64,000 nucleotides of DNA, from NCBI GenBank assembly GCA_964019135.1, contig OZ025248.1:68764119-68828118 (forward strand), in the 5' to 3' direction. Under the pieces are notes generated by a model. The model searched no databases. It was not told the DNA's origin and saw only the letters and a program-made list of their open reading frames with translations. This document shows, piece by piece, positions 2,468 through 41,829 of this stretch. The stretch comes from Arenicola marina (Eukaryota > Annelida > Polychaeta > Arenicolidae). The position numbers and the translations under genes are program-made. The stretch's first letter is position 1. Every line of letters begins with the position of its first letter.

Positions 2468-5400
2468 GTAAGTTCATTGATTGCTGTTGGTGAAATTGAT
2501 GACTTTTTGGTTTGGTTTATATAGGACATCTTTAACCTGGCCAGGAGGCCTTTGTAATTGATATCCCAAAAGACGTATCATATCACCCGTACAAGCACTA
2601 AACTTTTTTTGTTATTATTAATAACTTTAATGTTTTATTAATTCAGGCTTCAAGACAAAAAGATTATTTAGCAACACCATGATATACTAGACCGGTAATA
2701 TGCCGCCAGTGGTTGCACTGTCCTCACCTGCCGTTACGTTGCAGTAGGGGTGTCCGCCGTGGCTATTGGCCTGGATCCTCCCACTATAGCGGAGGTGGAG
2801 CGGGCCAACCCCACTGTGGAGGCTGGCGGTACGTGGCGCCCCAGTCACTGCCAGGCTCGCCAGAAGCTGGCCATCATCATTCCGTATCGGGACCGCTGGG
2901 GTCACCTCCGGTCACTGCTCATGAACCTCCACCCATATCTCCAGCGGCAGCAGATACACTATGGCATCTACGTGGTAGAACAGGTAACACGTTGTAACGG
3001 CATCCCGGTAGCCCGTCACAGGATCCATGACCTTCCCGAGCTGTTTAACTCAGCTGAACGCTTCCATTGAGCTGTTCGCGCCATCGAGCCGATCGCCTCA
3101 TTGAGCTGATCGCCTCATTGAGCTGATCGCCTCATCGAGCTGATCGCTTCATGCAGCTGATCGCCTCATTTAGTTGATCGCCTCATTGAGCTGATCGCCT
3201 CATTGAGCTGATCGCTCCATTGAGCTGATCGCCTCACGGAGCTGATCGCCTCATTGAGCTGATCGCCTCATTGAGCTGATCGCCTCATTGAGCTGATCGC
3301 CTCATTGAGCTGATCGCCTCATTGAGCTGATCGCCTCATTGAGCTGATCGCCTCATTGAGCTGATCGCCTCATTGAGCTGATCGCCTCATTGAGCTGATC
3401 GCCTCATTTAGCTGATCGCCTCATTGAGCTGATCGCCTCATTGAGATGATCGCCTCATGCAGCTGATCGCCTCATTGAGCTGATCGCCTCATTGAGCTGA
3501 TCGCCTCATTGAGCTGATCGCCTCATTGAGCTGATCGCCTCATTTAGCTGATCGCCTCATTGAGCTGATCGCCTCATTGAGATGATCGCCTCATGCAGCT
3601 GATCGCCTCATTGAGCTGATCGCCTCATTGAGCTGATCGCCTAATTGAGCTGATCGCCTCATTGAGCTGATCGCCTCATTGAGCTGATCGCTTCATGCAG
3701 CTGATCGCTTCATTGAGATGATCGCCTCATTGAACTGATCGCCTCGCGGAGCTGATCGCCTCATTGAGCTGATCGCCTCATTGAGCTGATCACCTCATTA
3801 AGCTGATCGCCTCTTTGAGCTGATCATCTCTTTGAGCTGATTACCTCATTAAGCTGATCGCCTCATTGAGCTGATCGCCTCATTGAGCTGATCGCCTCAT
3901 TAAGCTGATCGCCTCATTGAGCTGATCGCCTCTTTGAGCTGATCGCCTCATTGAGCTGTTCACCTCTTTGAGCTGATCGCCTCATTGAGCTGATCACCTC
4001 TTTGAGCTGATCGCCTCATTGAGCTGATCACCTCTTTGAGCTGATCGCCTCATTGAGCTGATCGCCTCATTGAGCTGATCACCTCTTTGAGCTGATCGCC
4101 TCATTGAGCTGATCGCCTCATTGAGATGATCGCCTCATTGAGCTGATTGCCTCATTGAGCTGATCGCCTCATTGAGCTGATCGCCTCATTGAGCTGATCG
4201 CCTCATTGAGCTGATCGCTTCATTGAGCTGTTCATGTAATACATTATTATTCACGAAATGAACATTACTGGCTTTATGAAAGTCGATTTCAGCTGGAAAT
4301 CTGGGTCTTTTTAACACAGGCTTTCGACGAGTTGTTCAACAAAGGTCGTATCATGAACATCGCCTTCAAGGAGGCTCTGCGGGATGGTGGCTGGGACTGC
4401 TTCATCTTCCACGACATCGACATGGTTCCTCAGCACGACCACAACCTCTACCAGTGTGACTCACAGCCCAGGCACCTCTCTCCTGCCCTGGATGAGATGA
4501 GATACACGTGAGTAACATACACAGAGGGCAACCTCTACCAGTGTGACTCACAGCCCAGGCACCTCCCCCCCCCCTCCCCCGCCCTGGATGAAATGAGATA
4601 CACGTGAGTAACACACACAGAGGACAACCTCTACCAGTGTGACTCACAGCCCTGACACCTCCCCCCCCACTCCCCCGCCCTGGATGAAATGAGATACACG
4701 TGAGTAACATACACAGAGGAATACCTCTACCAGTGTGACTCACAGCCCTGACACCTCCCCCCCCCCCCCCCCCGCCCTGGATGATATGAGATATGTTATG
4801 ACTTATGGCTTAATATGGCTATTGTTTCAGGTTGATGTACAGTACGTTGGTGGGCGGTGTGCTGGCGCTGTCCAGGGACCAGGTACAGCGCGTCAACGGA
4901 TACTCCAACCTGTACTGGGGGTGGGGGTCTGAAGACGACGACATGTCAATGAGGTGAGATGGAGCACCATGTGTGTCTTGTCTCAGGACGATCTCCCGCA
5001 GTGTGTGTATGGGGGGTGATTTCAATTGCAGAATGCGCCTCTGGCGTGTGTAGTGTCAAACTCCCGTGTGTGTCCTGCTTTCAGAATCCGGTCTGCGGGC
5101 TTCAGCATTACGAGACCTCCGAGCGCAATTGGTCGCTACAAGATGATCAGACACACCAAAAGGATTGGCGAGTTCACCAGGGACAGGTAACAGCTCTTAA
5201 AACACCGCTTTTAAACAGTTGGAGCTCTGTCATTATGGTTTATTTCTTCGTTGTAAATTATGGGAGATTACTTTACGTATCTGTACTGTAGTAATTCCTG
5301 GAACGTGCTTTCTACGTATCCGTACTGTAGTAATTCCTGGAACGTGCTTTCTACGTATCTGTAGTAATTCCTGGAAAGTATTTTCTACGTTTCTACAGTT

Positions 5401-6925: not shown

Positions 6926-6944
6926 TGTAGGGGGCCTCGTGTGT

Positions 6945-7890
6945 TTAGTGGGTAACGCACTAGACCGCTGATCAATGGTCCTGGGGGCCTCCCTGGTGTA
7001 GTGGATAGCGCACTAGACTGCAGATAAATAGTTCCTAGAGGCCTCCCTGGTGTAGTGGTTAGCGCACTAGACCACAGATCAATAGGTCCTGGGGGCCTCC
7101 CTGGTGTAGTGGTTAGCGCATTAGACCGCAAATCAATAGGTCCTGGGGGCCTCCCTGGTGTAGTGGTTAGCGCACTAGACCGCAGATCAATAGGTCCTGG
7201 GGGCCTCCCTGGTGTAGTGGTTAGCGCATTAGACCGCAAATCAATAGGTCCTGGGGGCCTCCCTGGTGTAGTGGGGGGGGGGCCTCCCTGGTGTAGTGGT
7301 TAGCGCACTAGACCGCAGATCAATAGGTCCTGGGTTCGAATCCGGGCTCGGGCACCTAATCTGGGGCATGTTTCATTCCTTCATCCTTCATCGTCTCGGC
7401 AGGTTCCTTGGCCCAATTTAGCCTGTATGTGCACAAAAGTGGCCTAAAACACCAACATTCCATTCCCTGGTGTAGTGGTTAGCGCACTAGACCACAGATC
7501 AATAGGTCTTGGGAACCTCCCTGGTGTAGTGGTTAGCGCATTAGACCGCAAATCAATAGGTCCTGGGGGCCTTCCTGGTGTAGTGGTTAGCGCACTAGAC
7601 CGCAGATCAATCGGTCCTGGGGGCCTCCCTGGTGTAGTGGTTAGCACACTAGACCGCAGATCAATAGGTCCTGGGGGCCTCCCTGGTGTAGTGGTTAGCG
7701 TACTAGACCGCAGATCAATAGGTCGTGGGGGCCTCCCTGGTGTAGTGGTTAGCGTACTAGACCGCAGATCAATAGGTCCTGGGGGCCTCTCTGGTGTAGT
7801 GGTTAGCGCACTAGACCGCAGATCAATAGGTCTTGGGGGCCTCCCTGGTGTACTGGTTAGCGCACTAGACCGCAAATTAATCGGTCCTGG
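6945..7890 (+). repeat. 54-bp array built from half of a tRNA-like sequence (about 15 copies)
   Basis: The unit contains the pol III A-box-like tggtgtagtggttagcgc, then ctagaccgcagatcaatag and gtcctgggggcc. The B box is absent from all units except the one that runs into the full SINE at 7283. Because 54 is a multiple of three, the array gives long meaningless open frames on both strands. Confidence 0.9.
7283..7466 (+). mobile_element. tRNA-derived SINE embedded in the array
   Basis: A complete tRNA-like head has the A box tggtgtagtgg, then ctagaccgcagatcaatagg and the B box ggttcgaatcc (7333-7343). A non-tRNA body follows (tttcattccttcatccttca to aaaacaccaacattcc). The head resembles tRNA-Glu at its 5' end (tccctggtg), but its two ends would not pair as an acceptor stem, so it is not a functional tRNA gene. 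Confidence 0.75.
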
Positions 7891-18136: not shown

Positions 18137-19356
18137 TTAATCGGCGGACACGATGAAACCGAGGAAGGTCGTCTGTCTCCCGGAATCACTGTAGCTGGTT
18201 TGATTTGCCTGCAGCGTGATCCGGAGCGACGTCCCGGCGTCCAGGTGGAGCAGAATGCCCCTGGAGAGGGTGTCCTGGTACCGGTTGTAGGGAGTCTCCC
18301 GGTAGATGTTGGTCGGGAACTGGTCCAGCGGGTCGATGACCAGGGCCAGGTTGAGGCCGTAGGCCGTACCCTCGTAGCCGTACATCGCTGACGTCATCCG
18401 GATGAAGTACACGCCGGAAGTGACGATGGTGACGCGGTCCGTGGCCGTGTTGTACACGTTGTTCAGGTTGGTGAGGACGATCTGGAAGTCGAGGGGGTCG
18501 AGCGGGATGGTGCTGCCAGCCGTCTGGATCACGTTGCTCTGGACGCACCAGGCGTCCTGGGTCGGCACCTTGGAGTCGTACTGGAAGCCGGAGAATGCCG
18601 TCATGGTGCCGTCGCTGTTGGCGGCCAGGCCGTCCTGTAGGACCACCTGCACGGTCTCGCCCTGTAGAAGCGGGACCAGGATGGCGGTGCTGATGATGTC
18701 CTTGCCGTTGTGGGTGCTGCTGGCTCGCCACAGCTCCCCCTGGTTTCCCGTCGCCGAGGCGATGAACTGGACCCGGACACTGCGGTTAGCGCTCAGCCCG
18801 ATGTTGGTGGTCAGGTAGTACGTGCCGGCCACGGGCGCCGTGAAGCGGCTGTTCGAGGCAGTGTACGCACTCCCTACGTTCACCAGCACGTCGTCGAAAG
18901 GGATTGCCGCAAAGGCGGTGGAGAAATCTCCTTCGTAGGCGGCGCTGAAGGCGACCACCGTGTTCATGTACTCCTCAAGGGCAAAGCCGGCCAGCGACAC
19001 CTGGCGGAAGTTGTCGGAGTAGACTCCGCTGTTGACGGCGTTGCTGGTGTCCATGACGCTACCGACGTCCAGCGGCGTGATGAAATCCCTGGAGAGTGTG
19101 TCGATGGTGTGGACGGTGCTGCTGCGGATGAGGCTGGTGAGGGCGTTGGTGGCCGAGGTCTTTATGTTGACCTGGGTCCCTGCCAGCGCCCCGCCGCTCA
19201 TGTGGAAGAAGTAGGTCCCGGTGACCGGGGCCACGTAGGAGTCGTTAGAAGCCACCCAGCTGCCGCCCCCATTGTACACGATCGAGTCGTAGGGCAGTCC
19301 CGCCACCGGGGCGCTCCAGCTGGTCGTCCTGGCAACGCAGAAGGCGGAAGTGCGCG
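18137..19356 (-). CDS. C1q gene exon 4: three C1q domains
   Basis: It encodes residues 253-658 and ends with TAA at 18139-18137. The acceptor is cgcctttgcag. Each domain has the C1q-type opening (AFCVARTTS, VVAFSAAYEG, AWCVQSN), the central APVTGTYFFHMSGG or APVAGTYYLTTNIG strand, and the closing AGFAL, FSGFQY or FLGFIVSAD. The third domain is the most divergent. One exon holding three domains suggests duplication before or without intron gain. Confidence 0.88.
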
Positions 19357-22300
19357 CTGCAAAGGCGAAAGAAACCGACACGTTTGTAAAGTGACAGCGA
19401 AAAAAAATGTTCTGTGACAACCATGTTATACACAACCTCGTCACGTGACAACTGCGTATTGTGACAACCGCGTCATGTGACAACCTCGTCATGTGACAAC
19501 CTCGTCATGTGACAACTGCGTCATGTGACAACCTCGTCAGGTAACAACTACGTCATGTGACAACCTCGTCACGTGACAACCGCGTCATGTGACAACCGCG
19601 TCATGTGACAAGCTCGTCATGTGACAACCGCGTCAGGTGACAACTGCGTCATGTGACAACCTCGTCATGTAACAACTGCGTCATGTGACAACCTCGTCAG
19701 GTAACAACTACGTCATGTGACAACCTCGTCACGTGACAACCGCGTCATGTGACAACCGCGTCATGTGACAACCTCGTCATGTGACAACCTCGTCAGGTGA
19801 CAACTGCGTCATGTGACAACCTCGTCATGTGACAACCGCGTCATTTGACAACTGCGTCATGTGACAACCGCGTCATGTGACAGCCGCATCATGTTACAAC
19901 CTCGTCATGTGGCAACTGCATCATGTGACAACCTCCTCAGGTGACAACCTCGTCATGTGACAACCTCGTCACGTGACAAACGCGTCATGTGACAACCGCG
20001 TCATGTGACAACCTCGTCATGTGGCAACTGCATCATGTGACAACCTCCTCAGGTGACAACCTCGTCATGTGACAACCTCGTCACGTGACAAACGCGTCAT
20101 GTGACAACCGCGTCATGTGACAACCTCGTCATGTGACAACCGCGTCAGGTGACAACCGCGTCAGGTGACAACTGCGTCATGTGACAACCTCGTCATGTGA
20201 CAACCGCGTCATTTGACAACTGCGTCATGTGCCAACCGCGTCATGTGACAGCCGCGTCATGTTACAACCTCGTCATGTGGCAACTGCATCATGTTACAAC
20301 CTCGTCAGGTGACAACTGCGTCATGTGACAACCTCGTCAGGTGACAACTGCGTCATGTGACAACCTCGTCATGTGACCACCGCGTCATGTGACAAATTCG
20401 TCAGGTGACAACTGCGTCATGTGACAACCTCGTCAGGTGACAACTGCGTCATGTGACAACCTCGTCAGGTGACAACTGCGTCATGTGACAACCTCGTCAT
20501 GTGACAACCGCGTCATGTGACAACCGCGCCATGTGACAGCTGCGTCATGTTACAACCTGTCGCGTGACGGTCACGCGGCAAGCCCGTGACAAACGCGACG
20601 CATGTGACAATTACGATAACAATATGGTCAGCTGAGCGAGGGGTCAGGTGACAACTGCGTCATATGATAAAGGCGTCATGTGTCAACCGCGTCATGCGTC
20701 AACCGCTTATTATGACAACCGCGCCATGTGACAAATTTGCAGCAAAAGTTAGTAGAGTAATCGACTACCTGACAGTGGCGCTGTCGTGGGCTCTGGCGTT
20801 GGCGTTGTTGTTGGTGGTGGCGGTGGCGCTGTGGTGGGCTCTGGCGGTGGCGCTGTCGTGGGTGGTGGCGGTGGCGCTGTCGTGGGTAGTGGCGGCGGCG
20901 CTGTCGTGGGTAGTGGCGGTGGCGCTGTGGTGGGCTCTGGCGGTGGCGTTGTAGTTCGTGGTGGTGGCGGTGGCGCTGTGGTGGGCTCTGGCGGTGGCGT
21001 TGTGGTTGGTGGTGGTGGCGGTGGCGCTGTGGTGGGCTCTGGCGGTGGCGTTGTGGTTGGTGGTGGTGGCGGTGGCGCTGTCGTGGGCTCTGGCGGTGAC
21101 GTTGTGGTTGGTGGTGGTGGCGGTGGCGCTGTGGTGGGCTCTGGCGGTGGCGTTGTGGTTGGTGGTGGTGGCGGTGGCGCTGTGGTGGGCTCTGGCGGTG
21201 GCGTTGTGGTTGGTGGTGGTGGCGGTGGCGCTGTGGTGGGCGGTGGCGCAGGCGTGGATGTCGTGCTAACTGCATCCCGCCAGTAATTATGATCAATTAT
21301 GGACGTAGCAGAGGTAATAACAATATGGAAGGGACAATGGTGATAACAATATGGAAGGAACAATGGTGATAACAATATAGAAGGAAGACTGGTGTTAACA
21401 ATATGGAAGGAAGACGGGTGATAACAATATGGAAGGAACAATGGTGATAACAATATGGAAGGAACAATGGTGATAACAATATGGAAGGAACAATGGTGAT
21501 AACAATATGGAAGGAAGACTGGTGATAACAATATGGAAGGAACAATGGTGATAACAATATGGAAGGGACAATAGTGATAATAATATGGAAGGAAGACTGG
21601 TGATAACAATATGGAAGGAAGACTGGTGATAACAATATGGAAGGAACAATGGTGATAACAATACGGAAGGGACAATGGTGATAACAATATGGAAGGAACA
21701 ATGGTAATAACAATATGGAAGGAACAATGGTGATAACAATATGGAAGGAACAATGGTGATAACAATATGGAAGGAACAATTGTGATAACAATATGTGAGG
21801 AACAATGGTGATAACAATATGGAAGGAACAATGGTGATAACAATATGGAAGGAACAATGGTGATAACAATATGGAAGGAACAATGGTGATAACAATATGG
21901 AAGGAACAATGGTGATAACAATATGTGAGGGACAATGGTGATAACAATAGGGAAGGAACAATGGTGATAACAATATGGAAGGGACAATGGTGATAACAAT
22001 ATGGAAGGAACAATGGTGATAACAATATGGAAGGAACAATGGTGATAACAATATGGAAGGAACAATGGTGATAACAATATGGAAGGAACAATGGTAATAA
22101 CAATATGGAAGGAACAATGGTGATAACAATATGTGAGGGACAATGGTGATAACAATATGGAAGGAACAATGGTGATAACAATATGGAAGGAACAATGGTG
22201 ATAACAATATGGAAGGAACAATGGTAATAACAATATGGAAGGAACAATGGTGATAACAATATGGAAGGGACAATGGTGATAACAATATGGAAGGAACAAT

Positions 22301-25300
22301 GGTAATAACAATATGGAAGGAACAATGGTGATAACAATATGGAAGGAACAATGGTGATAACAATATGGAAGGAACAATGGTGATAACAATATGGAAGGAA
22401 CAATGGTAATAACAATATGGAAGGAACAATGGTGATAACAATATGTGAGGGACAATGGTGATAACAATATGGAAGGAACAATGGTGATAACAATATGGAA
22501 GGAACAATGGTGATAACAATATGGAAGGAACAATGGTAATAACAATATGGAAGGAACAATGGTGATAACAATATGGAAGGAACAATGGTGATAACAATAT
22601 GGAAGGAACAATGGTAATAACAATATGGAAGGGACAATGGTGATAACAATATGGAAGGAACAATGGTGATAATGATATATGAGGAACAATGGTGATAATG
22701 ATATATGAGGAACAATGGTGATAACAATATGGAAGGAACAATGGTAATAACAATATGGAAGAAACAATGGTGATAACAATATGTGAGGGACAATGGTGAT
22801 AACAATATGGAAGGGACAATGGTGATAACAATATGGAAGGGACAATGGTGATAATGATATATGAGGAACAATGGTGATAACAATATGGAAGGGACAATGG
22901 TGATAACAATATGGAAGGGACAATGGTGATAGCAATATGTGAGGAACAATGGTGATAACAATATGGAAGGAACAATGGTGATAACAATATGGAAGGAACA
23001 ATTGTGATAACAATATGGAAGGAACAATTGTGATAACAATATGGAAGGAACAATTGTGATAACAATATGGGAGGAACAATGGTGATAACAATATCATAGG
23101 AACAATGGTGATAACAATATGGAAGGAACAATGGTGATAACAATATCATAGGAACAATGATGATAACAATATGGAAGGAACAATGGTGATAACAATATGT
23201 GAGGGACAATGGTGATAACAATATCATAGGAACAATGGTGATAACAATATGGAAGGAACAATGGTGATAACAATATGGAAGGAACAATTGTGATAATGAT
23301 ATGGGAGGAACAACGGTGATAACAATATCATAGGAACAATGGTGATAACAATATGGAAGGAACAATGGTGATAACAATATCATAGGAACAATGATGATAA
23401 TAATAAGAGATGAACAAGTCAAATTTATCAATGCAGATATTTCCGCTCTGACAATCACGTGAGTTGACACGCACGGGTTGATACAGGTACTGACTACTGG
23501 TGTTACCTAACCACCGGTATGACAGCTTGTCTTGTAATTCCTTCTTTGTAATGCGCATTAAACTGCCGGCTAGCATTTTAGATTGATCAATTTGGTTTAA
23601 ATGTACCCAGATACGCTTTATCCGCATGACTCTGTGAGATTTAAGAATATCTTGGCCTACACATGCGCAGTCCATCCATCCGCAATAGGCCTACTAACGT
23701 CTACGGTGTTTCTTTTAACTTTACGTGGTTTATCGTCCAACACGAATTTTGCAATATCGTCATTTACCATTTGAACGAAACGTATATTCTTCTGGGACGA
23801 ATACAATGGCCATGACGCACGATAGAAGTGGCAAGGCTAACCTTACGGGCTCTGATCTTCCCTTGTACCAGGGCAATATCATGGCCACACAGCAATGCAA
23901 ACACACCGGCATATATTTCGTCTTATATACAGATATATGGTAGCACGTTGGTCTTCTCCAAGTAGGCCTTCAAATTCGAGGGGTTTAATTACCTAGTGCC
24001 AGCAAAAGGGACACGGACTTCAGTATACAGCTTTGTCTAGTGTTTGTCATGGCTTGTTGATTGTGTATGATTCTAATTTACCATAGAAGTGACAGGCCTG
24101 TAACATTCTATTCATCAGTGTGTGGACCGGTTTTGTGTAAGGAGCTGACCAGAGACCATATATCAAGAAACTCATTACATCGAAACCAGCTTTTATCATT
24201 TTGGAAAGCAACTCATTTGCGCTGCAGTTCACCCAAAGAGTTACTTCTGCTACGCTACCAGCTCACCCAATGAGTTACTTCTGAACAGTTAGCTGATCTG
24301 ATTATCTGAACAACTAAAGGGTTAACTCTGATTCCATGAACACCTAAAGGGTTAACTCTATGATTACCTATACAACTAAAGGGTTAACTCTATGATTACC
24401 TATACAACTAAAGGGTTAACTCTATGATTACCTATACAACTAAAGGGTTAACTCTGATTATACGAACACCTAAAGGGTTAATTCTATGATTACCTGAACG
24501 CCTAAAGGGTTAAGTCTATGATTACCTGAACAACTAAAGGGTTAACACAGATTCCATGAACACCTTAAGGGTTAAGCCTATGACTACCTGAACACCTACA
24601 GGGGTAACCCTTCATGATTAAGTGAACACCTAAAGGGTTGAATCTATGATTACCTGAACACCAAAAGGGTTGACACCATGAATACCTGAACAACTAAAGG
24701 GTTAACACCATGATTACCGGAACACCTACAGGTTCACTCTACGATTACCTGAACACCTAAACGGTTAACTCTATGATTCCTTAACCAACTAAAGGGTTAA
24801 CACCATAATTACCTGAACACCTAAAGGGTTACCACCATAATTACCTGAACATCTAAAGGGTTAACATCATAATTACATGAACACCTAAAGGGTTAACACC
24901 ATAATTACATGAACACCTAAAGGGTTAACACCATAATTAACTGAACACCTAAAGGGTTAACACCATAATTACCTGAACATCTAATGGGTTAACATCATAA
25001 TTACCTGAACACTAAAGAGTTAACACCATAATTACCTGAACATCTAAAGGGTTAACACCATAATTACATGAACATCTAAAGGGTTAACATCATAATTACA
25101 TGAAGACCTAAAGGGTTAACACCATAATTACATGAACACCTAAAGGGTTAACACCATAATTACCTGAACACCTAAAGGGTGCACATCATAATTACCTGAA
25201 CACCTAAAGGGTTAACACCATAATTACCTGAACACCTAAAGGGTTAACACCATAATTACCTGAACATCTAATGGGTTCACATCATAATTACCTGAACACC

Positions 25301-28300
25301 TAAAAGGTTAACACCATAATTACCTGAACACCTAAAGGGTTAACACCATAATTACCTGAACATCTAATGGGTTCACATCATAATTACCTGAACACCTAAA
25401 AGGTTAACACCATAATTACCTGAACACCTAAAGGGTTAACACCATAATTACCTGAACATCTAATGGGTTCACATCATAATTACCTGAACACCTAAAGGGT
25501 TAACACCATAATTACCTGAACACCTAAAGGGTTAACACCATAATTACCTGAACACCTAAAGGGTTAACACCATAATTACCTGAACACCTAAAGGGTTAAC
25601 ACCATAATTACCTGAACACCCCACTTCGTCGGGCGGTCGACAGGTTTGTGTACTGGGATCGAAGTCGAGGCCAGGATCGCAGGTTTCTAGCCGCTTGTTA
25701 CAATCCAGACATTGCCAGTAGAGGGAACAGTTTCCCGGGACGGCAAAGCTGCCGTCCACGCAGGTTTGGTCCGGGTTGGTGGGACACGAGAACTCATTCT
25801 GTGCCTGGCACAAACCTAAGGAAAGAGCGGTAACAGAATACAGCAAGGATCCGATAATAAACGACATCACAAAAACATCTTAGAATACAGCAAGGATACG
25901 AAATTAAAAGACATCACAAGAACATCTCAGAATACAGCAAGGATACGAAATTAAAAGACATCACAATAAAATATCAGAATACAGCAAGGATCCGAGAATA
26001 AAAGACATTACAATAAAAAATCAGATTAAAGTAAGGATCCGAGAATAAACGAACATCTCAGAATGCAGCAACGATCCAAGAATAAAAGACATCACAATAA
26101 AATATCAGAATACAACAATGAACAGAGAATAAAGACCTCACAATAAAATATCAGAATACAACAATGAACAGAGAATAAAGACCTCACAATAAAATATCAG
26201 AATACAACAATGAACAGAGAATAAAGACCTCACAATAAAATATCAGAATACAACAATGAACAGAGAATAAAGACCTCACAATAAAATATCAGAATACAGC
26301 AACGATCCGAATAATGACATGCTGCCTCAACGTGATCTTCTACGCTTAACGTACTCAACGTGCTGTTCTACGCTTAACGTACTCAACGTGATCTTCTACG
26401 CTTAACGTACTCAACGTGATCTTCTACGCTTAACGTACTCAACGTGATCTTCTACGCTTAACGTACTCAACGTGATCTTCTACGCTTAACGTACTCAACG
26501 TGATCTTCTACGCGTAACGTACTCAACGTGATCTTCTACGCTTAACGTACTCAACGTGATCTTCTACGCTTAACGTACTCAACGTGATCTTCTACGCTTA
26601 ACGTACTCAACGTGATCTTCTACGCTTAACGTACTCAACGTGATCTTCTACGCTTAACGTACTCAACGTGATCTTCTACGCTTAACGTACTCAACGTGAT
26701 CTTCTACGCTTAACGTACTCAACGTGATCTTCTACGCTTAACGTACTCAACGTGATCTTCTACGCTTAACGTACTCAACCTGATCTTCTACGCTTAACGT
26801 ACTCAACGTGATCTTCTACGCTTAACGTACTCAACGTGATCTTCTACGCTTAACGTACTCAACGTGATCTTCTACGCGTAACGTACTCAACGTGATCTTC
26901 TACGCTTAACGTACTCAACGTGATCTTCTACGCTTAACGTACTCAACGTGATCTTCTACGCTTAACGTACTCAACGTGATCTTCTACGCTTAACGTACTC
27001 AACGTGATCTTCTACGCTTAACGTACTCAACGTGATCTTCTACGCTTAACGTACTCAACGTGATCTTCTACGCTTAACGTACTCAACGTGATCTTCTACG
27101 CGTAACGTACTCAACGTGATCTTCTACGCTTAACGTACTCAACGTGATCTTCTACGCTTAACGTACTCAACGTGATCTTCTACGCTTAACGTACTCACCG
27201 TGATCTTCTACGCTTAACGTACTCAACCTGATCTTCTACGCTTAACGTACTCAACGTGATCTTCTACGCGTAACGTACTCAACGTGATCTTCTACGCTTA
27301 ACGTACTCAACGTGATCTTCTACGCGTAACGTACTCAACGTGATCTTCTACGCTTAACGTACTCAACGTGATCTTCTACGCTTAACGTACTCAACGTGAT
27401 CTTCTACGCTTAACGTACTCAACGTGATCTTCTACGCTTAACGTACTCACCGTGATCTTCTACGCTTAACGTACTCAACCTGATCTTCTACGCTTAACGT
27501 ACTCAACGTGATCTTCTACGCGTAACGTACTCAACGTGATCTTCTACGCTTAACGTACTCACCGTGATCTTCTACGCTTAACGTACTCAACGTGATCTTC
27601 TACGCTTAACGTACTCAACCTGATCTTCTACGCTTAACGTACTCAACGTGATCTTCTACGCTTAACGTACTCAACCTGATCTTCTACGCTTAACGTACTC
27701 AACGTGATCTTCTACGCTTAACGTACTCAACGTGATCTTCTACGCTTAACGTACTCAACCTGATCTTCTACGCTTAACGTACTCAACGTGATCTTCTACG
27801 CTTAACGTACTCAACCTGATCTTCTACGCTTAACGTACTCAACGTGATCTTCTACGCTTAACGTACTCAACGTGATCTTCTACGCTTAACGTACTCAACG
27901 TGTTCTTCTACGCTTAACGTACTCAACGTGATCTTCTACGCTTAACGTACTCAACGTGATCTTCTACGCTTAACGTACTCAACGTGATCTTCTACGCTTA
28001 ACGTACTCAACGTGATCTTCTACGCGTAACGTACTCAACGTGATCTTCTACGCTTAACGTACTCAACGTGATCTTCTACGCGTAACGTACTCAACGTGAT
28101 CTTCTACGCTTAACGTACTCAACGTGATCTTCTACGCGTAACGTACTCAACGTGATCTTCTACGCTTAACGTACTCAACGTGATCTTCTACGCTTAACGT
28201 ACTCAACGTGATCTTCTACGCTTAACGTACTCAACGTGATCTTCTACGCTTAACGTACTCAACGTGATCTTCTACGCGTAACGTACTCAACGTGATCTTC

Positions 28301-30922
28301 TACGCTTAACGTACTCAACGTGATCTTCTACGCGTAACGTACTCAACGTGATCTTCTACGCTTAACGTACTCAACGTGATCTTCTACGCGTAACGTACTC
28401 AACGTGATCTTCTACGCTTAACGTACTCAACCTGATCTTCTACGCTTAACGTACTCAACGTGATCTTCTACGCCTAACGTACTCAACGTGATCTTCTACG
28501 CTTAACGTACTCACCGTGATCTTCTACGCTTAACGTACTCAACGTGCTGTTCTACGCGTAACGTACTCAACGTGATCGTCTACGCCTAACGTACTCAACC
28601 TGATCTTCTACGCTTAACGTACTCAACGTGATCTTCTACGCCTAACGTACTCAACGTGATCTTCTACGCTTGCTTAACGTACTCACCGTGATCTTCTACG
28701 CTTAACGTACTCAACGTGATCTTCTACGCGTAACGTACTCAACGTGATCTTCTACGCTTAACGTACTCACCGTGATCTTCTACGCCTAACGTACTCAACG
28801 TGATCTTCTACGCTTAACGTACTCACCGTGATCTTCTACGCTTAACGTACTCAACGTGCTGTTCTACGCGTAACGTACTCAACGTGATCTTCTACGCTTA
28901 ACGTACTCAACGTGATCTTCTACGCTTAACGTACTCAACGTGATCTTCTACGCTTAACGTACTCAACGCGCTATTCTACGCTTATCGTACTGAACGTGCT
29001 GTTTCACGCTTAACGTACTCACCGTGATCTTCTACGCTTAACGTGCTCAACGTGTTCTTCTACGCTTAACGTACTCAACGTGATCTTCTACGCCTAACGT
29101 ACTCAACGTGATCTTCTACGCTTAACGTGCTCAACGTGTTGTTATACGCTTAACGTACTCAACGTGCTGTTCTACGCGTAACGCACTCAACGTGATCTTC
29201 TACGCTTAACGTACTCAACGTGATCTTCTACGCTTAACGTACTCAACGTGATCCTCTACGCTTAACGTACTCAACGTGCTGTTCTACGCGTAACGTACTC
29301 AACGTGATCTTCTACGCTTAACGTACTCAACGTGCTGTTCTACGCGTAACGCACTCAACGTGATCTTCTACGCTTAACGTACTCAACGTGATCTTCTACG
29401 CTTAACGTACTCAACGTGATCTTCTACGCTTAACGTACTCAACGTGCTGTTCTACGCTTAACGTACTCAACGTGCTGTTCTACGCGTAATGTACTCAACG
29501 TGATCTTCTACGCTTAACGTACTCAACGTGCTGTTCTACGCGTAAAGCACTCACCGTGATCTTCTACGCTTAACGTACTCAACGTGATCTTCTACGCTTA
29601 ACGTACTCAACGTGATCTTCTACGCTTAACGTACTCAACGTGCTGTTCTACGCGTAACGTACTCAACGTGATCTTCTACGCCTAACGTACTCAACGTGAT
29701 CTTGTATGCTTAACGTACTCAACGTGATCTTATACGCGTAACGTACTCAACGTGATCTTCTACGCCTAACGTACTCAACCTGATCTTCTACGCTTAACGT
29801 ACTCAACGTGATCTTCTACGCCTAACGTACTCAACGTGATCTTCTACGCTTAACGTACTCACCGTGATCTTCTACGCTTAACGTACTCAACGTGCTGTTC
29901 TACGCGTAACGTACTCAACGTGATCTTCTACGCTTAACGTACTCAACGTGATCTTCTACGCTTAACGTACTCAACGTGATCTTCTACGCATAACGTACTC
30001 AACGCGCTCTTCTACGCTTATCGTACTGAACGTGCTGTTTCACGCTTAACGTACTCACCGTGATCTTCTACGCTTAACGTGCTCAACGTGTTCTTCTACG
30101 CTTAACGTACTCAACGTGATCTTCTACGCCTAACGTACTCAACGTGATCTTCTACGCTTAACGTGCTCAACGTGTTGTTATACGCTTAACGTGCTCAACG
30201 TGTTCTTCTACGCTTAACGTACTCAACGTGATCTTCTACGCTTAACGTACTCAACGTGATCTTCTACGCTTAACGTACTCAACGTGCTGTTCTACGCGTA
30301 ACGTACTCAACGTGATCTTCTACGCTTAACGTACTCAACGTGATCTTCTACGCCTAACGTACTCAACGTGATCTTCTACGCTTAACGTACTCAACGTGAT
30401 CTTCTACGCGTAACGTACTCAACGTGATCTTCTACGCTTAACGTACTCAACGTGATCTTCTACGCTTAACGTACTCAACGTGATCTTCTACGCGTAACGT
30501 ACTCAACGTGATCTTCTACGCTTAACGTACTCAACGTGATCTTCTACGCTTAACGTACTCAACGTGCTGTTCTACGCTTAACGTACTCAACGTGATCTTC
30601 TACGCTTAACGTACTCAACGTGATCTTCTACGCTTAACGTACTCAACGTGATCTTCTACGCGCAACGTACTCAACGTGATCTTCTACGCTTAACGTACTC
30701 AACGTGATCTTCTACGCTTAACGTACTCAACGTGATCTTCTACGCTTAACGTACTCAACGTGATCTTCTACGCGTAACGTACTCAACGTGATCTTCTACG
30801 CTTAACGTACTCAACGTGATCTTCTACGCTTAACGTACTCAACGTGCTGTTCTACGCTTAACGTACTCACCGAGAGCCAGTACGGTGAGTAGACCCCCGA
30901 GAATAACGCGTGCTGATGACAT
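18137..30922 (-). CDS. Secreted chitin-binding, mucin-stalk, triple-C1q protein (four exons, 658 aa)
   Basis: Coding exons in transcript order are 30922-30871, 25815-25612, 21269-20769 and 19356-18137. Every intron is GT-AG and in phase 1, giving 1977 nt. The protein has a signal peptide (MSSARVILGGLLTVLALGLC and on), one type-2 chitin-binding domain (residues about 28-84), a Pro/Thr-rich stalk (86-252) and three C1q domains (about 256-379, 386-512, 521-656). It should be secreted, bind chitin or a similar glycan through the N-terminal domain, and use its C1q heads, probably trimerised, for ligand recognition. The mucin-like stalk would be O-glycosylated. C1q-domain proteins are common innate immune lectins in marine invertebrates, and chitin-binding domains joined to immune domains occur in amphioxus and tunicate VCBPs; an immune role at a mucus or gut surface is inferred, not shown. 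No collagen region is present. Introns 1 and 2 each begin with an amplified copy of their own donor. Confidence 0.82.
19440..20650. repeat. 16-bp minisatellite in C1q gene intron 3 (about 70 copies)
   Basis: The unit is tgacaacctcgtcatg with an alternating tgacaaccgcgtcatg form. It occupies most of the intron between exons 3 and 4. Blocks such as the one at about 19900-19990 recur at about 20020-20110, showing higher-order duplication. The unit does not include the exon 3 donor. Confidence 0.95.
20769..21269 (-). CDS. C1q gene exon 3: Pro/Thr-rich stalk, a coding minisatellite
   Basis: It encodes residues 86-252. The core is a 17-residue (51-bp) unit, PPPEPTTAPPPPPPTTT, repeated about six times and followed by shorter PTTAPPP units. 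The acceptor is gggatgcag and the donor is gtcag|gtagtc. Both boundaries are phase 1, so skipping the exon would keep the frame. Almost uninterrupted Pro and Thr, with rare Glu, Leu, Arg and Ser, fits an O-glycosylated spacer. The unit keeps the frame, unlike most arrays nearby that contain stops in some frame. Copy number is likely to vary between alleles. Confidence 0.78.
21300..23405. repeat. 26-bp minisatellite in C1q gene intron 2 (about 81 copies)
   Basis: The unit is gataacaatatggaaggaac followed by aatggt. Open frames spanning it on the minus strand, rich in Tyr, Cys and His, are artefacts of the repeat. Confidence 0.96.
23406..24296. other. Unique part of C1q gene intron 2
   Basis: About 0.9 kb of non-repetitive sequence between two arrays. 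No phase-compatible exon was found, and the exons on each side join in phase without one. Confidence 0.45.
24297..25612 (-). repeat. 32-bp minisatellite carrying the exon 2 donor (about 40 copies)
   Basis: On the minus strand each unit contains gtgttcaggtaattatgg, the same sequence as the exon 2 to intron 2 junction (ttcag|gtaatt at 25612/25611). The first unit therefore spans the real exon end, and the others lie in tandem inside the intron. Most units retain the donor exactly. Older, more divergent units (ttccatgaac, tacctatac forms) sit at the distal end near 24.3-24.7 kb. Confidence 0.93.
25612..25815 (-). CDS. C1q gene exon 2: type-2 chitin-binding domain
   Basis: It encodes residues 18-86, both boundaries being phase 1. 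The acceptor is ctctttccttag. The domain reads SCPTNPDQTCVDGSFAVPGN to PPDEVGCS, with the six conserved cysteines of peritrophin-A/CBM14 domains (residues 36, 47, 53, 63, 76, 84) plus an extra pair (28, 56). The CDPGLDFDPSTQTC block is typical. The residues before it (QAQNEF) would be the mature N terminus after signal cleavage. Confidence 0.87.
25835..26312. repeat. Minisatellite upstream of the exon 2 acceptor
   Basis: Units of about 42-48 bp carry agaatacagcaaggatccga followed by an A-rich part ending acatcac. The four units at about 26107-26290 are nearly identical 48-bp copies (aatacaacaatgaacagaga form). On the minus strand this is the last 500 bases of intron 1, so the array covers likely branch-point territory. 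Confidence 0.9.
26316..30870 (-). repeat. 28-bp minisatellite seeded at the exon 1 donor (about 162 copies)
   Basis: The plus-strand unit is cttctacgcttaacgtactc followed by aacgtgat. On the minus strand the real exon 1 donor and what follows (gtgagtacgttaagcgtag, from 30870) matches the unit almost perfectly. Most units have gttgagtacg in its place, but about eleven read ggtgagtacg, identical to the true donor. A block near 28981 recurs 1036 bp later at 30017 (37 units), so long segments have been duplicated. Confidence 0.96.
30871..30922 (-). CDS. C1q gene exon 1: signal peptide
   Basis: ATG at 30922-30920 opens 17 codons plus one base: MSSARVILGGLLTVLAL, then a split Gly. The donor is ctcg|gtgagt. 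Joined to exon 2 it gives a standard signal peptide with likely cleavage near CQA|QN. The exon is tiny and sits at the edge of the 28-bp array. It was recognised from phase, the hydrophobic core and the strong donor. An in-frame ATG inside a repeat near 25868 was considered as an alternative start and judged less likely. Confidence 0.72.
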
Positions 30923-32223: not shown

Positions 32224-32423
32224 NNNNNNNNNNNNNNNNNNNNNNNNNNNNNNNNNNNNNNNNNNNNNNNNNNNNNNNNNNNNNNNNNNNNNNNNNNNNN
32301 NNNNNNNNNNNNNNNNNNNNNNNNNNNNNNNNNNNNNNNNNNNNNNNNNNNNNNNNNNNNNNNNNNNNNNNNNNNNNNNNNNNNNNNNNNNNNNNNNNNN
32401 NNNNNNNNNNNNNNNNNNNNNNN
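32224..32423. other. Assembly gap (200 N)
   Basis: The run of N bases has the round length of a placeholder, so the true size is unknown. It is bounded by a G-rich tract on the left and lies just before the G-rich 27-bp array. Confidence 0.98.
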
Positions 32424-36660: not shown

Positions 36661-37034
36661 CTTACGTTATTAAAACACGGCCAAGGTCTGTTTTCCGGTG
36701 CCTACGTTTAGATAATAAACACTGAAGACAAAGGCGTGACGTCACACAATTGTTTAAACAAAGCAATTGGAATTGTTTCCTTACATAGTGATCATTAAAT
36801 ATTCCTGCGCTGTAAGCATTGTTACCTTGTGAGTAATCATTTACTTAATTAATCATTGTTAAATGTGCAGCTAAACTATATGAAGAAACCTATTTACGTT
36901 GAGATATTTAACTTTAAGGCTTTTGGAGTTTTCTATTGTCAAAATGTTGTGCTTTGTTGTAAATTAAATGTTTCTATTTTCGTACCATGGGCCTGGTGCC
37001 TACAGTTGGAAATAAACATTATTATTAGTAATCA
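36661..37034. other. A+T-rich spacer, nothing recognised
   Basis: No coding or RNA signal found. Confidence 0.4.
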
Positions 37035-37445
37035 TTAAAGATTCCTATAGAGGGCAGTAAGCAGTTACTTTATAGAGCGAACATTAGAGATTCCTATAGA
37101 GGGCAGTAAGCAGTTACTTTATAGAGCGAACATTAGTGATTCCTATAGAGGGCAGTAAGCAGTTACTTTATAGAGCGAACATTAGAGATTCCTATAGAGG
37201 GCAGTAAGCAGTTACTTTATAGAGCGAACATTAGAGATTCCTATAGAGGGCAGTAAGCAGTTACTTTATAGAGCGAACATTAGAGATTCCTATAGAGGGC
37301 AGTGAGCAGTTACTTTATAGAGCGAACATTAGAGATTCCTATAGAGGGCAGTAAGCAGTTACTTTATAGAGCGAACATTAGAGATTCCTATAGAGGGCAG
37401 TAAGCAGTTACTTTATAGAGCGAACATTAGAGATTCCTATACAGG
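37035..37445. repeat. 49-bp minisatellite, eight to nine copies, with a CTCF-like motif in each
   Basis: The unit is agattcctatagagggcagt plus aagcagttactttatagagc and gaacatt. Copies are nearly identical. The part cctatagagggcagt fits 13 of 15 positions of the CTCF core consensus. Confidence 0.93.
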
Positions 37446-38275
37446 GCAGTATGTACGGTTCCCTTTAATAATGATCAGTAAAGATTCTTACAATGGGCAG
37501 TGAGCATTGTTATCTGATAACGCGAACATTAAAGATTCTTATACAGGTCAGTAAGCATTGTTACTTTTACAGGGAACATTGGATATTCGTACACAGGTCA
37601 GTAAACACGGTTTATACTTACAATGGGCAGTGGGCATTGTTATCTGATAAAGTGACCATTAAAGATTCTTATACAGGTCAGTAAGCATTGTTACTTTATA
37701 CAGGGAACATTAGATATTCGTACACAGGTAAGTAAACATGCTTTATTCTTACAATGGTCAGTGGGCATTGTTATCTCATAAAGTGACCATTAAAGATTCT
37801 TATACAGGTCAGTAAGCATTGTTACTTTATACAGGGAACATTAGATATTCGTACACAGGTAAGTAAACATGCTTTATTCTTACAATGGTCAGTGGGCATT
37901 GTTATCTCATAAAGTGACCATTAAAGATTCTTATACAGGTCAGTAAGCATTGTTACTTTATACAGGGAACATTGGATATTCGTACACAGGTCAGTAAACA
38001 CGGTTTATTCTTACAATGGTCAGTGGGCATTGTTATCTCATAAAGTGAACATTAAAGATTCCTATACAGGTCAGTAAGCATTGTTACTTTATACAGGGAA
38101 CATTAGATATTCGTACACAGGTCACTGTGTAAACACGGTTTATTCTTACAATGGTCAGTGGGCATTGTTATCTCATAAAGTGAACATTAAAGATTCCTAT
38201 ACAGGTCAGTAAGCATTGTTACTTTATACAGGGAACATTAGATATTCGTACACAGGTCACTGTGTAAACACGGTT
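37446..38275. repeat. About 128-bp tandem repeat (about six copies)
   Basis: Units combine cattaaagattcttatacag, gtcagtaagcattgttactt, acattagatattcgtacaca and ttcttacaatggtcagtggg. Internal similarity between sub-blocks, and to the preceding 49-bp array, suggests both grew from one ancestral unit. Confidence 0.88.
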
Positions 38276-38950: not shown

Positions 38951-40648
38951 CTAGTTACACATCAAATTAACATTAGTTAAATTACTCGTATCAATTATAT
39001 TTAACAAACTATTCTTAGTATTTCTCTTAAAAAGGTGAAGCGATGATTGAAAGTTTACCTTACCAAACCATTTATTAAAAATATATATCCCATTATATCT
39101 CATAGATATTTTCGTCAATTGACACTTGTGCTTAGGAACATGTAATAGCTGCGACCTTCTAGTGTTATACTTATGTATGTCAGCATTTCTTATAAACAAA
39201 TCTTTTATTATAAGAGGTTGCAATCCATTGTATTGCTTAAACATAAATAATAAAACGCTATACTCGTATAATGATGTGAGCGGGAGAATCTTATTCGTTA
39301 CAAATAACGGCGCTGAGTGGGCCCATTTATTAACTCCAGACAATATGCGAACTGCTTTTTTTTGGATCACGATAAGAAGGGTTAAAAAGCTAGTACACGA
39401 AGCTCCCCATACTTCAATACAATATGATAGATATGGAGACACAAAACAATTATATAAAATCCGTAGGGTGTCATTGGTTAACATTTTCCTTGCACAAGTG
39501 ATTATTCCAAGCGCCCTTGCCATTTTACTTTTAATATAATCTATATGTTGTTTCCACAGAAGGTCACAGTCTAATTGTACTCCCAAAAATTTCGTGATAG
39601 TTGTTTGTACAACAGTTTCGCCAGAAATGATGACACTGCTGTGAATACTAATTTTCTTTCGCTTGGGTTTGAAAACCATGAATTTAGTTTTATCGAGATT
39701 GAGAGCAAGCTTATTAATTTGTAACCAATACTGTATGTGTTTTAATTCCCCATTCAGCGTTTCAATCGTTTTATTGATATCTTTGCCCGATATAAAGAAA
39801 TTAGAATCATCTGCAAATAAGATTCCAAACAATTGCTTACTTACATTCATTAAGTCATTAATGTATAAAAGAAATAAAAGTGGACCTAAAACAGAACCTT
39901 GCGGGACTCCACATACTATTCGAGATCTGTTCGAAGATGTATTATTGTAAAATACAAACTGTTCTCTCGCATTGGGGTAACTTTTTAGCCACGTTAAAGC
40001 AAGCCCTCTTACACCGTATCTGTCTAATTATTTAAACAGTATATCGTGGTCAACCGTATCGAAGGCTCTCGAGAAATCAAGAAATATACCAACAGTAGTT
40101 TGTCCCATTTCCCTAGCAGTTGTTAGTTTATCTTGCAGAAGTAAAAGGGCTAAGGTAGTAGAGTGATTTGATCTAAAACCAAATCGGTTTTTGTGCAGTA
40201 AGTCATATTTGTTAATAAAGTTGATTAGACGTTTCTGCATCAGCTGTTCGAACACTTTAGAAAATGTTGGAAGAATTGAAATTGGTCTGTAGTTAGTAAA
40301 TAATTTACTATCCCCCCCTTTCAGGATAGGTGTTACTTTTGCACGTTTAAGTTCTTCGGGTAATATCCCTTCACTAAATGAGAGATTAATTACATGAGTT
40401 AGGGGTTGGGTGAGGGGATCTATAATCGTTTTGATTACTTTGGCTGTTAGCGAGTCCCATCCTGGTGAGCTGTTCTTTAGGGATGCAAGGGCGTTGCGGA
40501 CTTCACTACTAGTAACTGGATCAAGGAAAAGCGACTTATTATTGGTATCTTTCATAAAGTTACGTGAGTGGTGAATCTCCATTTCCTGGGATTGTTTTTG
40601 ATATAGATTTACCAACATTAACAAAGTAGTTATTAAACTCATTAGCAA
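38951..40648 (-). pseudogene. LINE reverse transcriptase domain
   Basis: Motifs in order: RAKVTPILKGG, YRPISILPTFSKVFEQLM, NRFGFRSNHST, FLDFSRAFDTVDH, CGVPQGSVLGPL and FADDSN with the catalytic Asp pair, then the thumb WLQINKLALNLDKTK and a C-terminal extension to NLMCN. One in-frame TAA at 40028-40030 interrupts it just after DHDILFK. The frame is otherwise continuous on both sides. The copy is therefore non-functional by at least one stop and one frameshift. Confidence 0.88.
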
Positions 40649-41715
40649 TTTGGCTTCTATCTGTAGTCAGTCCTCCTCTTATCGAAAATGTCGTTTGGAA
40701 CTTCTGACCTTGTTTTTTGTTTACTACCTCTTTAATTGTTTTCCACATCTTAAACAAGTTATTTTTATTTGCTTTTATGGCGGACTGATAATACGTTTTT
40801 TCTGCCGCTCTAACAGTGGATAAAAGCTTATTTTTATATTTTTTATAATCATGCTCAGATTCTTTAGTTTTTTGTCTCATAAATCTACAATACAATCGAT
40901 TTTTCTTAGATATGCAGTTCTTTAATCCTGTACTGAGCCATGGTTTTCTGTTTTGGTATTTAGATCTGGAGATAGTGAGAGGAAAACATTTCTCATGTAT
41001 AAGAGAAACTGAACGGTGTAGTTTAGTATAGGCTTCCTGGGTGCTTGGTGTCTCTAAAATAGTATCCCAGTTTTCGTTTGTTATACAGTGAACAAATTTC
41101 TCAATATTGGGCTTACTCACATTCCTTTTCACGATGTTAACTCTGTCAACATTAATCTGAACATACTGTGATATATAGAACACAGGAAAATGATCTGTAA
41201 TATCTGTGTACATAATGCCTTTCAGGGAAGAGTTAATATCGCACTCGTTAGTGAAGATATTATCAATCAGCGTAGCTGTGGTACTTGTTACCCTGGTCGG
41301 TTTGCTTATCGCGGGTAGAAACGCATGGCTAAACATTGAGTCAATAAATTCAGCTGTGGGTCTATGAGAGTCCATATTTAGCAGATTAATGTTAAAATCT
41401 CCTGCGAGATAACAAACCACCTTTTCAGAGTTAATCTTATGCAATAACTCGTCTAACTGCTCATTAAATACAACAATGTTGGTATCCGGTGGTCGGTAAA
41501 CTACACCAACTAAAATTGATTTCTGATTAGCATAAGCTCCCTTGTCTAGTTGCACAAATAAAGCTTCCATATGTTCATTAAATACATCCAAGTCCGGTCG
41601 CTGGCTGAAGTTAACTCCGGACTTAATAAACATTGAAACCCCTCCACCAGTTCTGTCTTGTCGGTAACTATTGACGGGAAGATAACCGTCCAAACCATGG
41701 CAATCAACGTTGCCT
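40566..41715 (-). pseudogene. LINE endonuclease domain
   Basis: Motifs in order: GGGVSMFIKSG, VGVVYRPP, LAGDFNIN, ATLIDNIFTN and TDITDHFPVFY, the usual order of the endonuclease/exonuclease/phosphatase fold. Upstream of 41715 the sequence CIIVLDK, a TAG and FNEG resembles a decayed IIVLTETW block, so that residue pattern is already broken. The frame closes at 40560 because of a one-base shift at about 40565, where the reverse transcriptase frame takes over. Confidence 0.85.
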
Positions 41716-41829
41716 TCGTTAAACTACTTATCAAGTACTATTATACAACTTCTGGTCCGGCAGGTGAATTCGTTATGCTTCATGTACACAAAGGCTAACC
41801 GATCTCGCATAGTAAGTACCCCGGCGGGC

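Follow-up and report, generated by a model that had tools for sequence, protein, structure and literature searches.

The name 'mirages' was given to tandem repeats that cross exon-intron boundaries in the Adh3 gene of amphioxus, and two reports also place them in globin, TnC, and PGBD5, with units of 10-72 bp in Adh3 and approximately 150-160 bp in globin (PMC3087553, PMC3902484). According to these reports, regular splicing is undisturbed by the repeats; somatic instability has been reported, and a link to intron gain has been proposed. Repeats are also present in intron 1 of earthworm metallothionein genes (PMC12783039), and intron gain by tandem duplication is treated in PMC4974935, the model also being discussed in PMC3087553.

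The arrays in the present study, which were found in the window (the whole stretch of 64,000 nucleotides analyzed) and in a sample of other genes of the same assembly, work like amphioxus mirages; the phylum, the scale, and a measured excess of array starts in the donor zone are additions. Similar to the amphioxus repeats, they span exon-intron boundaries, may lie at either end of an intron, and keep splice signals (AG/GT in amphioxus) in many copies. They differ from these descriptions in reaching up to 162 copies, in the genes concerned (kinesin, myosin, SNF-transporter, C1q, and transferase genes), and in the measured donor-zone excess; the host is an annelid and not a cephalochordate, the original taxon, which is no part of the mechanism. 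With the earthworm metallothionein repeats they share an annelid host, a minisatellite size, and a location in a first intron, whereas the passages of PMC12783039 consulted do not describe those repeats as spanning splice sites. Tandem duplication that is able to carry splice signals is common to these arrays and to intron gain by duplication, in which, unlike in the worm, a new intron arises; the worm arrays fill existing introns (PMC4974935). No record of annelid mirages, of arrays on this scale, or of a measured donor bias was found in the open-access literature, a scope outside which most subscription papers lie, nor did this literature yield anything on competition between donors.

The assignment of the host rests on contig C762, which is the mitochondrial genome (COX1 by Pfam, part of 16S by Rfam, and the other genes by visual inspection of the translation). 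In this contig, cox3 is followed by nad6/cob, atp6 sits between cob and nad5, nad5 comes before nad4L/nad4, and nad3 is located between nad1 and nad2; the protein genes share a single strand. Since these four order changes are those given for annelids in PMC2639372, the host is an annelid, and an amphioxus framing does not apply to this genome. A search for the GFP family was negative in this assembly, but equally so in the control genomes, and by itself it carries no weight. Three small contigs (C390:12-653, C536:12679-13687, and C504:46195-47024) carry kinesin motor stretches interrupted by in-frame TAG and TAA, and by no TGA, a pattern resembling the ciliate nuclear code; the contigs may derive from an associated ciliate.

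The C1q gene of the window is on the minus strand and encodes a complete protein of 658 aa (658 codons) in four exons with phase-1 GT-AG joins. Its junctions were placed using splice scores, Pfam matches, and an intact reading frame across GT-AG sites, with a slash marking the junction in the following list.

30871..30922, minus strand: coding part of C1q exon 1 with the start codon; donor CTCG/GTGAGTACG at 30871/30870
26326..30869, minus strand: 28 bp x 162 array (TRF 162.1 copies, 94% matches), most of C1q intron 1
25834..26302, minus strand: 46/47-bp arrays, 3' part of C1q intron 1, leaving 18 intron bases before exon 2
25612..25815, minus strand: C1q exon 2, CBM_14 chitin-binding domain (Pfam); donor GGTGTTCAG/GTAATT
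24301..25620, minus strand: 32 bp x 41 junction-spanning array (TRF 41.4 copies, 87% matches), opening C1q intron 2
21313..23405, minus strand: 26 bp x 80 array, 3' part of C1q intron 2
20769..21269, minus strand: C1q exon 3; a 51-bp repeat at 20775-21255 encodes a Pro/Thr-rich linker
19432..20557, minus strand: 16 bp x 70 array in C1q intron 3
18137..19356, minus strand: C1q exon 4 to the stop codon, three C1q stretches (Pfam)

Exon 1 encodes a signal peptide (by eye), the acceptor of exon 3 has a poor splice score (-3.9), and exon 2, used as a DNA query against the assembly (867 Mb, 762 contigs), has a single match site. An assembly gap of 200 N lies at 32224-32423, approximately 1.3 kb upstream of exon 1.

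According to the original prediction, introns 1 and 2 of this gene are built from copies of their own 5' splice sites, with a repeat spanning the junction in each. Both arrays exist, and their units appear by eye to be unrelated in sequence, as had been claimed; the remainder of the prediction stands for the array that opens intron 2 and needs correction for intron 1. The 32-bp unit combines 9 bases from the end of exon 2 (exon end 25612, array end 25620) with 23 intron bases, GT is kept in 30 of the 31 recognized copies, and the copies decay with distance from the exon. The 28-bp array abuts the donor of exon 1 instead of spanning it: it starts at intron base +2 (30869; exon end 30871), a CG match is the only clear trace of exon sequence in it (by eye, 5 of the 7 bases at the exon end agree), and the similarity between its neighboring copies peaks far from the exon. 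Since GT is kept in just 11 of its 159 recognized copies and lost in the other 148, intron 1 is not made of working copies of its own donor. In both introns, the 3' part is filled by other arrays (25834-26302 and 21313-23405, respectively). A uniform outward growth from the exon is unsupported, the copy gradients being different between the two introns.

A 201-bp piece of the 28-bp array was searched against the genome, in a search that passes over very common words, and all 33 listed matches were within C1q intron 1; a mobile minisatellite is unsupported for this array. Together with the finding that array units differ from gene to gene, the confinement of these listed matches to their own intron makes the unit look local. 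In a paralogue 300 kb away, the homologous CBM_14 exon has a 39 bp x 5 array that spans its donor and is present in both copies of a duplicated block. The unit of this array looks unrelated; the array may have arisen independently, or it may descend from an old one common to both genes that has since diverged.

A galactosyltransferase-like gene had been named as a third junction case, and this was borne out by an array that clearly spans the donor after position 4507.

4320..4507, plus strand: exon of the galactosyltransferase-like gene, Glyco_transf_7N; donor CAC/GTGAGT after 4507, acceptor counted by hand
4478..4793, plus strand: 96 bp x 3.3 junction-spanning array (TRF) of the same gene

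The 96-bp unit comprises the exon end, the donor, and the intron start. Glyco_transf_7N was matched by Pfam in two exons of this gene, and a third piece had no family match. Elsewhere in the window, arrays whose periods range from 49 to 131 bp occupy 37033-38259, some units carrying a strong donor-like ACAGGTAAGT on the plus strand; with no gene assigned nearby, they are possibly another donor-derived array. A 54 bp x 18 array at 6930-7890 (unit TGGTGTAGTGGTTAGCGC...) has a unit that by eye resembles the 5' half of a tRNA and may be a tRNA-derived piece repeated in tandem. A LINE-like element is located at 38951-41723 on the minus strand, with two open pieces that encode reverse transcriptase and endonuclease domains.

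The original prediction went further and proposed a mechanism that preferentially duplicates the exon end and donor, to be checked by counting array starts at splice sites. This check was performed on a small sample and not on the whole genome: 121 exons in 52 locus groups, from families chosen by Pfam name, namely, 71 kinesin, 30 myosin, and 20 SNF transporter exons. The kinesin exons comprised 56 of 133 matches (those in fetched stretches) and 15 hand-picked hits of a local profile, from which hits that were array copies were excluded; 30 of 77 myosin and 20 of 98 SNF matches were taken, and EGF, DEAD, ABC, and most C1q matches were left out. Splice scores and Pfam matches, and not transcripts, served to place the junctions; donors were callable for 112 of the 121 exons (9 failed) and acceptors for 118 (3 failed). 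Rates are array starts per kb of sequence not already inside an array, with near defined as up to 60 bp from the junction and far as 60-600 bp. This measure was set after the arrays of all three families had been listed, the SNF exons having been picked before their arrays were seen. Resampling was by the 52 locus groups, among which a single gene was split in a few cases. Arrays in three stretches (L009, L011, and L020), with a splice site visible by eye and no called exon, were uncounted.

Two further kinds of repetition were observed in the families searched. At C4:367768-383957, the same segments of the myosin head (positions ~110-154 and ~590-640) are matched several times, in what look like alternative-exon clusters of a muscle myosin gene. 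EGF_CA exons that are evenly spaced and have similar scores occur at C5:26394930-26402909 (~1.6 kb) and C8:16149436-16155239 (~1.9 kb), so that whole blocks of exon and intron appear to have been duplicated in tandem as well.

In the Pfam-matched kinesin stretches, TRF returned units composed of the exon end, the donor, and the intron start, and in one kinesin gene, the true exon is followed downstream by 28 further copies of the exon end (LNLVDLAGSERQGKTG and its variants), as detected with a local profile. Arrays across junctions, taking in at least 3 exon bases, were present at 15 of 112 donors (two of them, L054 and L062, weak) and 8 of 118 acceptors. These counts include the spanning arrays that reach more than 60 bases into the exon (donors L007 and L010; acceptors L007 and L060), which are outside the rate bins.

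At the 112 donors, arrays started at 2.14/kb in the near zone (25 starts in 11,674 bp) versus 0.53/kb in the far zone (23 in 43,257 bp), a ratio of 4.1 (95% interval 2.2-7.8, bootstrap over the 52 locus groups; p 2.5e-6). The corresponding rates at the 118 acceptors were 0.98/kb (13 starts in 13,261 bp) and 0.95/kb (44 in 46,338 bp), and the near/far ratio of 1.0 (0.4-2.0, bootstrap) gives no acceptor peak in array starts. The donor enrichment was significant at all four TRF settings (p 0.0005 or less at the three stricter ones) and in each family (near and far starts: kinesin 12 and 11, p 0.002; myosin 7 and 9, p 0.02; SNF 6 and 3, p 0.004), and it persisted in a strict subset of well-placed, strong sites (66 donors and 83 acceptors; p 0.002). 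The ratio between the donor and acceptor near zones was 2.2 (1.2-5.0, same bootstrap) with p 0.02 overall, 0.06-0.12 at the three stricter TRF settings, 0.51 for kinesins alone, and 0.16 in the strict subset. A donor-zone preference for array starts is accordingly supported, and the contrast between donors and acceptors is modest.

In 40-bp bins from -140 to +140 around the donor, the rates were 0, 0.24, 2.15, 2.04, 2.23, 0.88, and 0.58 starts/kb, which indicates a hot zone approximately 120 bp wide that is centred on the junction and confined to -60 to +60. The 25 arrays of this zone divide into 13 with an exonic start (more than two bases into the exon in 12 cases) and 12 with an intronic start. 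The predicted enrichment of array starts at 5' splice sites was recovered in this sampled form against the intron interior and, modestly, against 3' splice sites. The mechanism that had been proposed finds partial support in the approximately 4-fold enrichment within 60 bp of donors and not of acceptors; its restriction to the exon end and donor sits poorly with the 12 starts in the intron, the 8 acceptor-spanning arrays, the size of the donor/acceptor contrast, and a strand skew not significantly greater than that of control DNA.

This skew was assessed in 141 non-redundant arrays with units of at least 14 bp. Donor-like sites in the units were in the sense orientation in 24 cases and antisense in 7 at a score of at least 4 (p 0.003), and in 10 and 1 cases, respectively, at a score of at least 5 (p 0.012); acceptor-like sites in the same arrays had no strand bias (sense/antisense 17/12, 9/7, and 3/3). 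The non-array, non-coding DNA of the same 66 loci (137 kb) contained 115 sense versus 80 antisense donor-like sites, and the skew of the arrays did not significantly exceed it (Fisher p 0.06, 0.07, and 0.17 at scores 3, 4, and 5). Since the control DNA is also skewed, which may partly reflect real donors of uncalled exons, the strand test backs the donor reading weakly.

The content of the copies was surveyed in 15 arrays, namely, 12 from the sample, which take in 10 to 129 bases of the exon, and the three of the window, including that of C1q intron 1, which merely abuts its junction whereas those of C1q intron 2 and the transferase gene span theirs. In 14 of these arrays, GT was kept in 164 of 169 recognized copies, 128 of which were within one bit of the true donor, so that the copies carry the splice signal as in mirages; C1q intron 1 (11/159) was the sole exception. 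No sign of frame selection on unit length was detected, multiples of three occurring in 5 of the 15 units. This retention of GT and the unbiased unit lengths fit copies that are removed as intron.

Taken together, we lean towards regarding the arrays as locally seeded mirage minisatellites that were born around the 5' splice site and expanded into the intron. The mostly dead donor copies of C1q intron 1 and the different gradients in introns 1 and 2 speak against local seeding from the donor. Another account, which we consider unlikely while granting it appreciable weight, is that duplications arise everywhere, with no preference for donors, and those at junctions persist since splicing removes the additional copies. 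Tandem repeats do make up a third or more of genic DNA (32.5% of 18 stretches, L005-L022, and 53.7% of the window), the acceptor-zone rate equals the background, and acceptor-spanning arrays exist; the density of starts is also flat over the donor junction from -60 to +60, and the strand skew of the units is not clearly above that of non-array DNA. However, random seeding at 0.0404 exon-overlapping starts per junction predicts 4.5 such starts at the donors, where 12 were found (Poisson P 0.0025), versus 4.8 expected and 6 found at the acceptors (P 0.34), and it predicts no drop past +60 bp, where a 4-fold drop was found (p 2.5e-6). If births were instead equal at both intron ends and acceptor arrays were purged because a repeated branch point, tract, or AG diverts splicing, the higher number of starts in the donor than in the acceptor zone (25 vs 13) would be accounted for. 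This difference in survival is improbable, as it leaves unexplained why the donor zone exceeds the intron interior, the most tolerant place, and eight acceptor-spanning arrays are present.

A selective advantage of many donor copies, which would secure U1 binding or shield long introns from premature cleavage, agrees with GT being mostly kept in 14 of the 15 surveyed arrays; however, young arrays would retain GT regardless, 12 of the 25 donor-zone arrays begin within the intron, and the longest array lost GT in most of its recognized copies (148/159), which renders such selection very improbable. That the arrays are an artefact of assembly is scarcely credible: arrays are difficult to assemble and the window does contain the 200-N gap, but their copies differ among themselves, and different arrays lie at the donors of many genes on several chromosomes.

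In the mechanism that we favor, local seeding around the 5' splice site, a short segment within approximately 60 bp on either side of the site would be duplicated in tandem, and the duplicate would expand into the intron via slippage or unequal exchange. The exon-proximal copy would presumably remain the working donor, and later copies, even those with an intact donor, would be spliced out as intron. The enrichment in the donor zone would reflect a higher birth rate and not survival, two quantities that are inseparable within one genome, and its cause may be, for example, a transcription- or U1-linked exposure of a strand. We propose only tentatively, and with rather less assurance, that in this worm the 5' splice site of transcribed genes is a germ-line hotspot for the birth of tandem duplications, that much of its intronic minisatellite DNA descends from donor regions, and that the spliceosome ignores tens of intact copies in preference for the exon-proximal one.

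If a whole-genome count confirms the preference for donors, the birth of minisatellites would be linked to one particular position within the transcription unit, and R-loops, polymerase pausing, and U1 binding would become testable causes. The arrays also provide natural rows of up to approximately 30 near-identical donors for studying the choice of 5' splice sites, and a gene with dozens of copies of one splice signal calls for an explanation both of the starting point of the repeats and of the cell's choice of the correct signal. Arrays at donors would, furthermore, be raw material for intron growth and gain.
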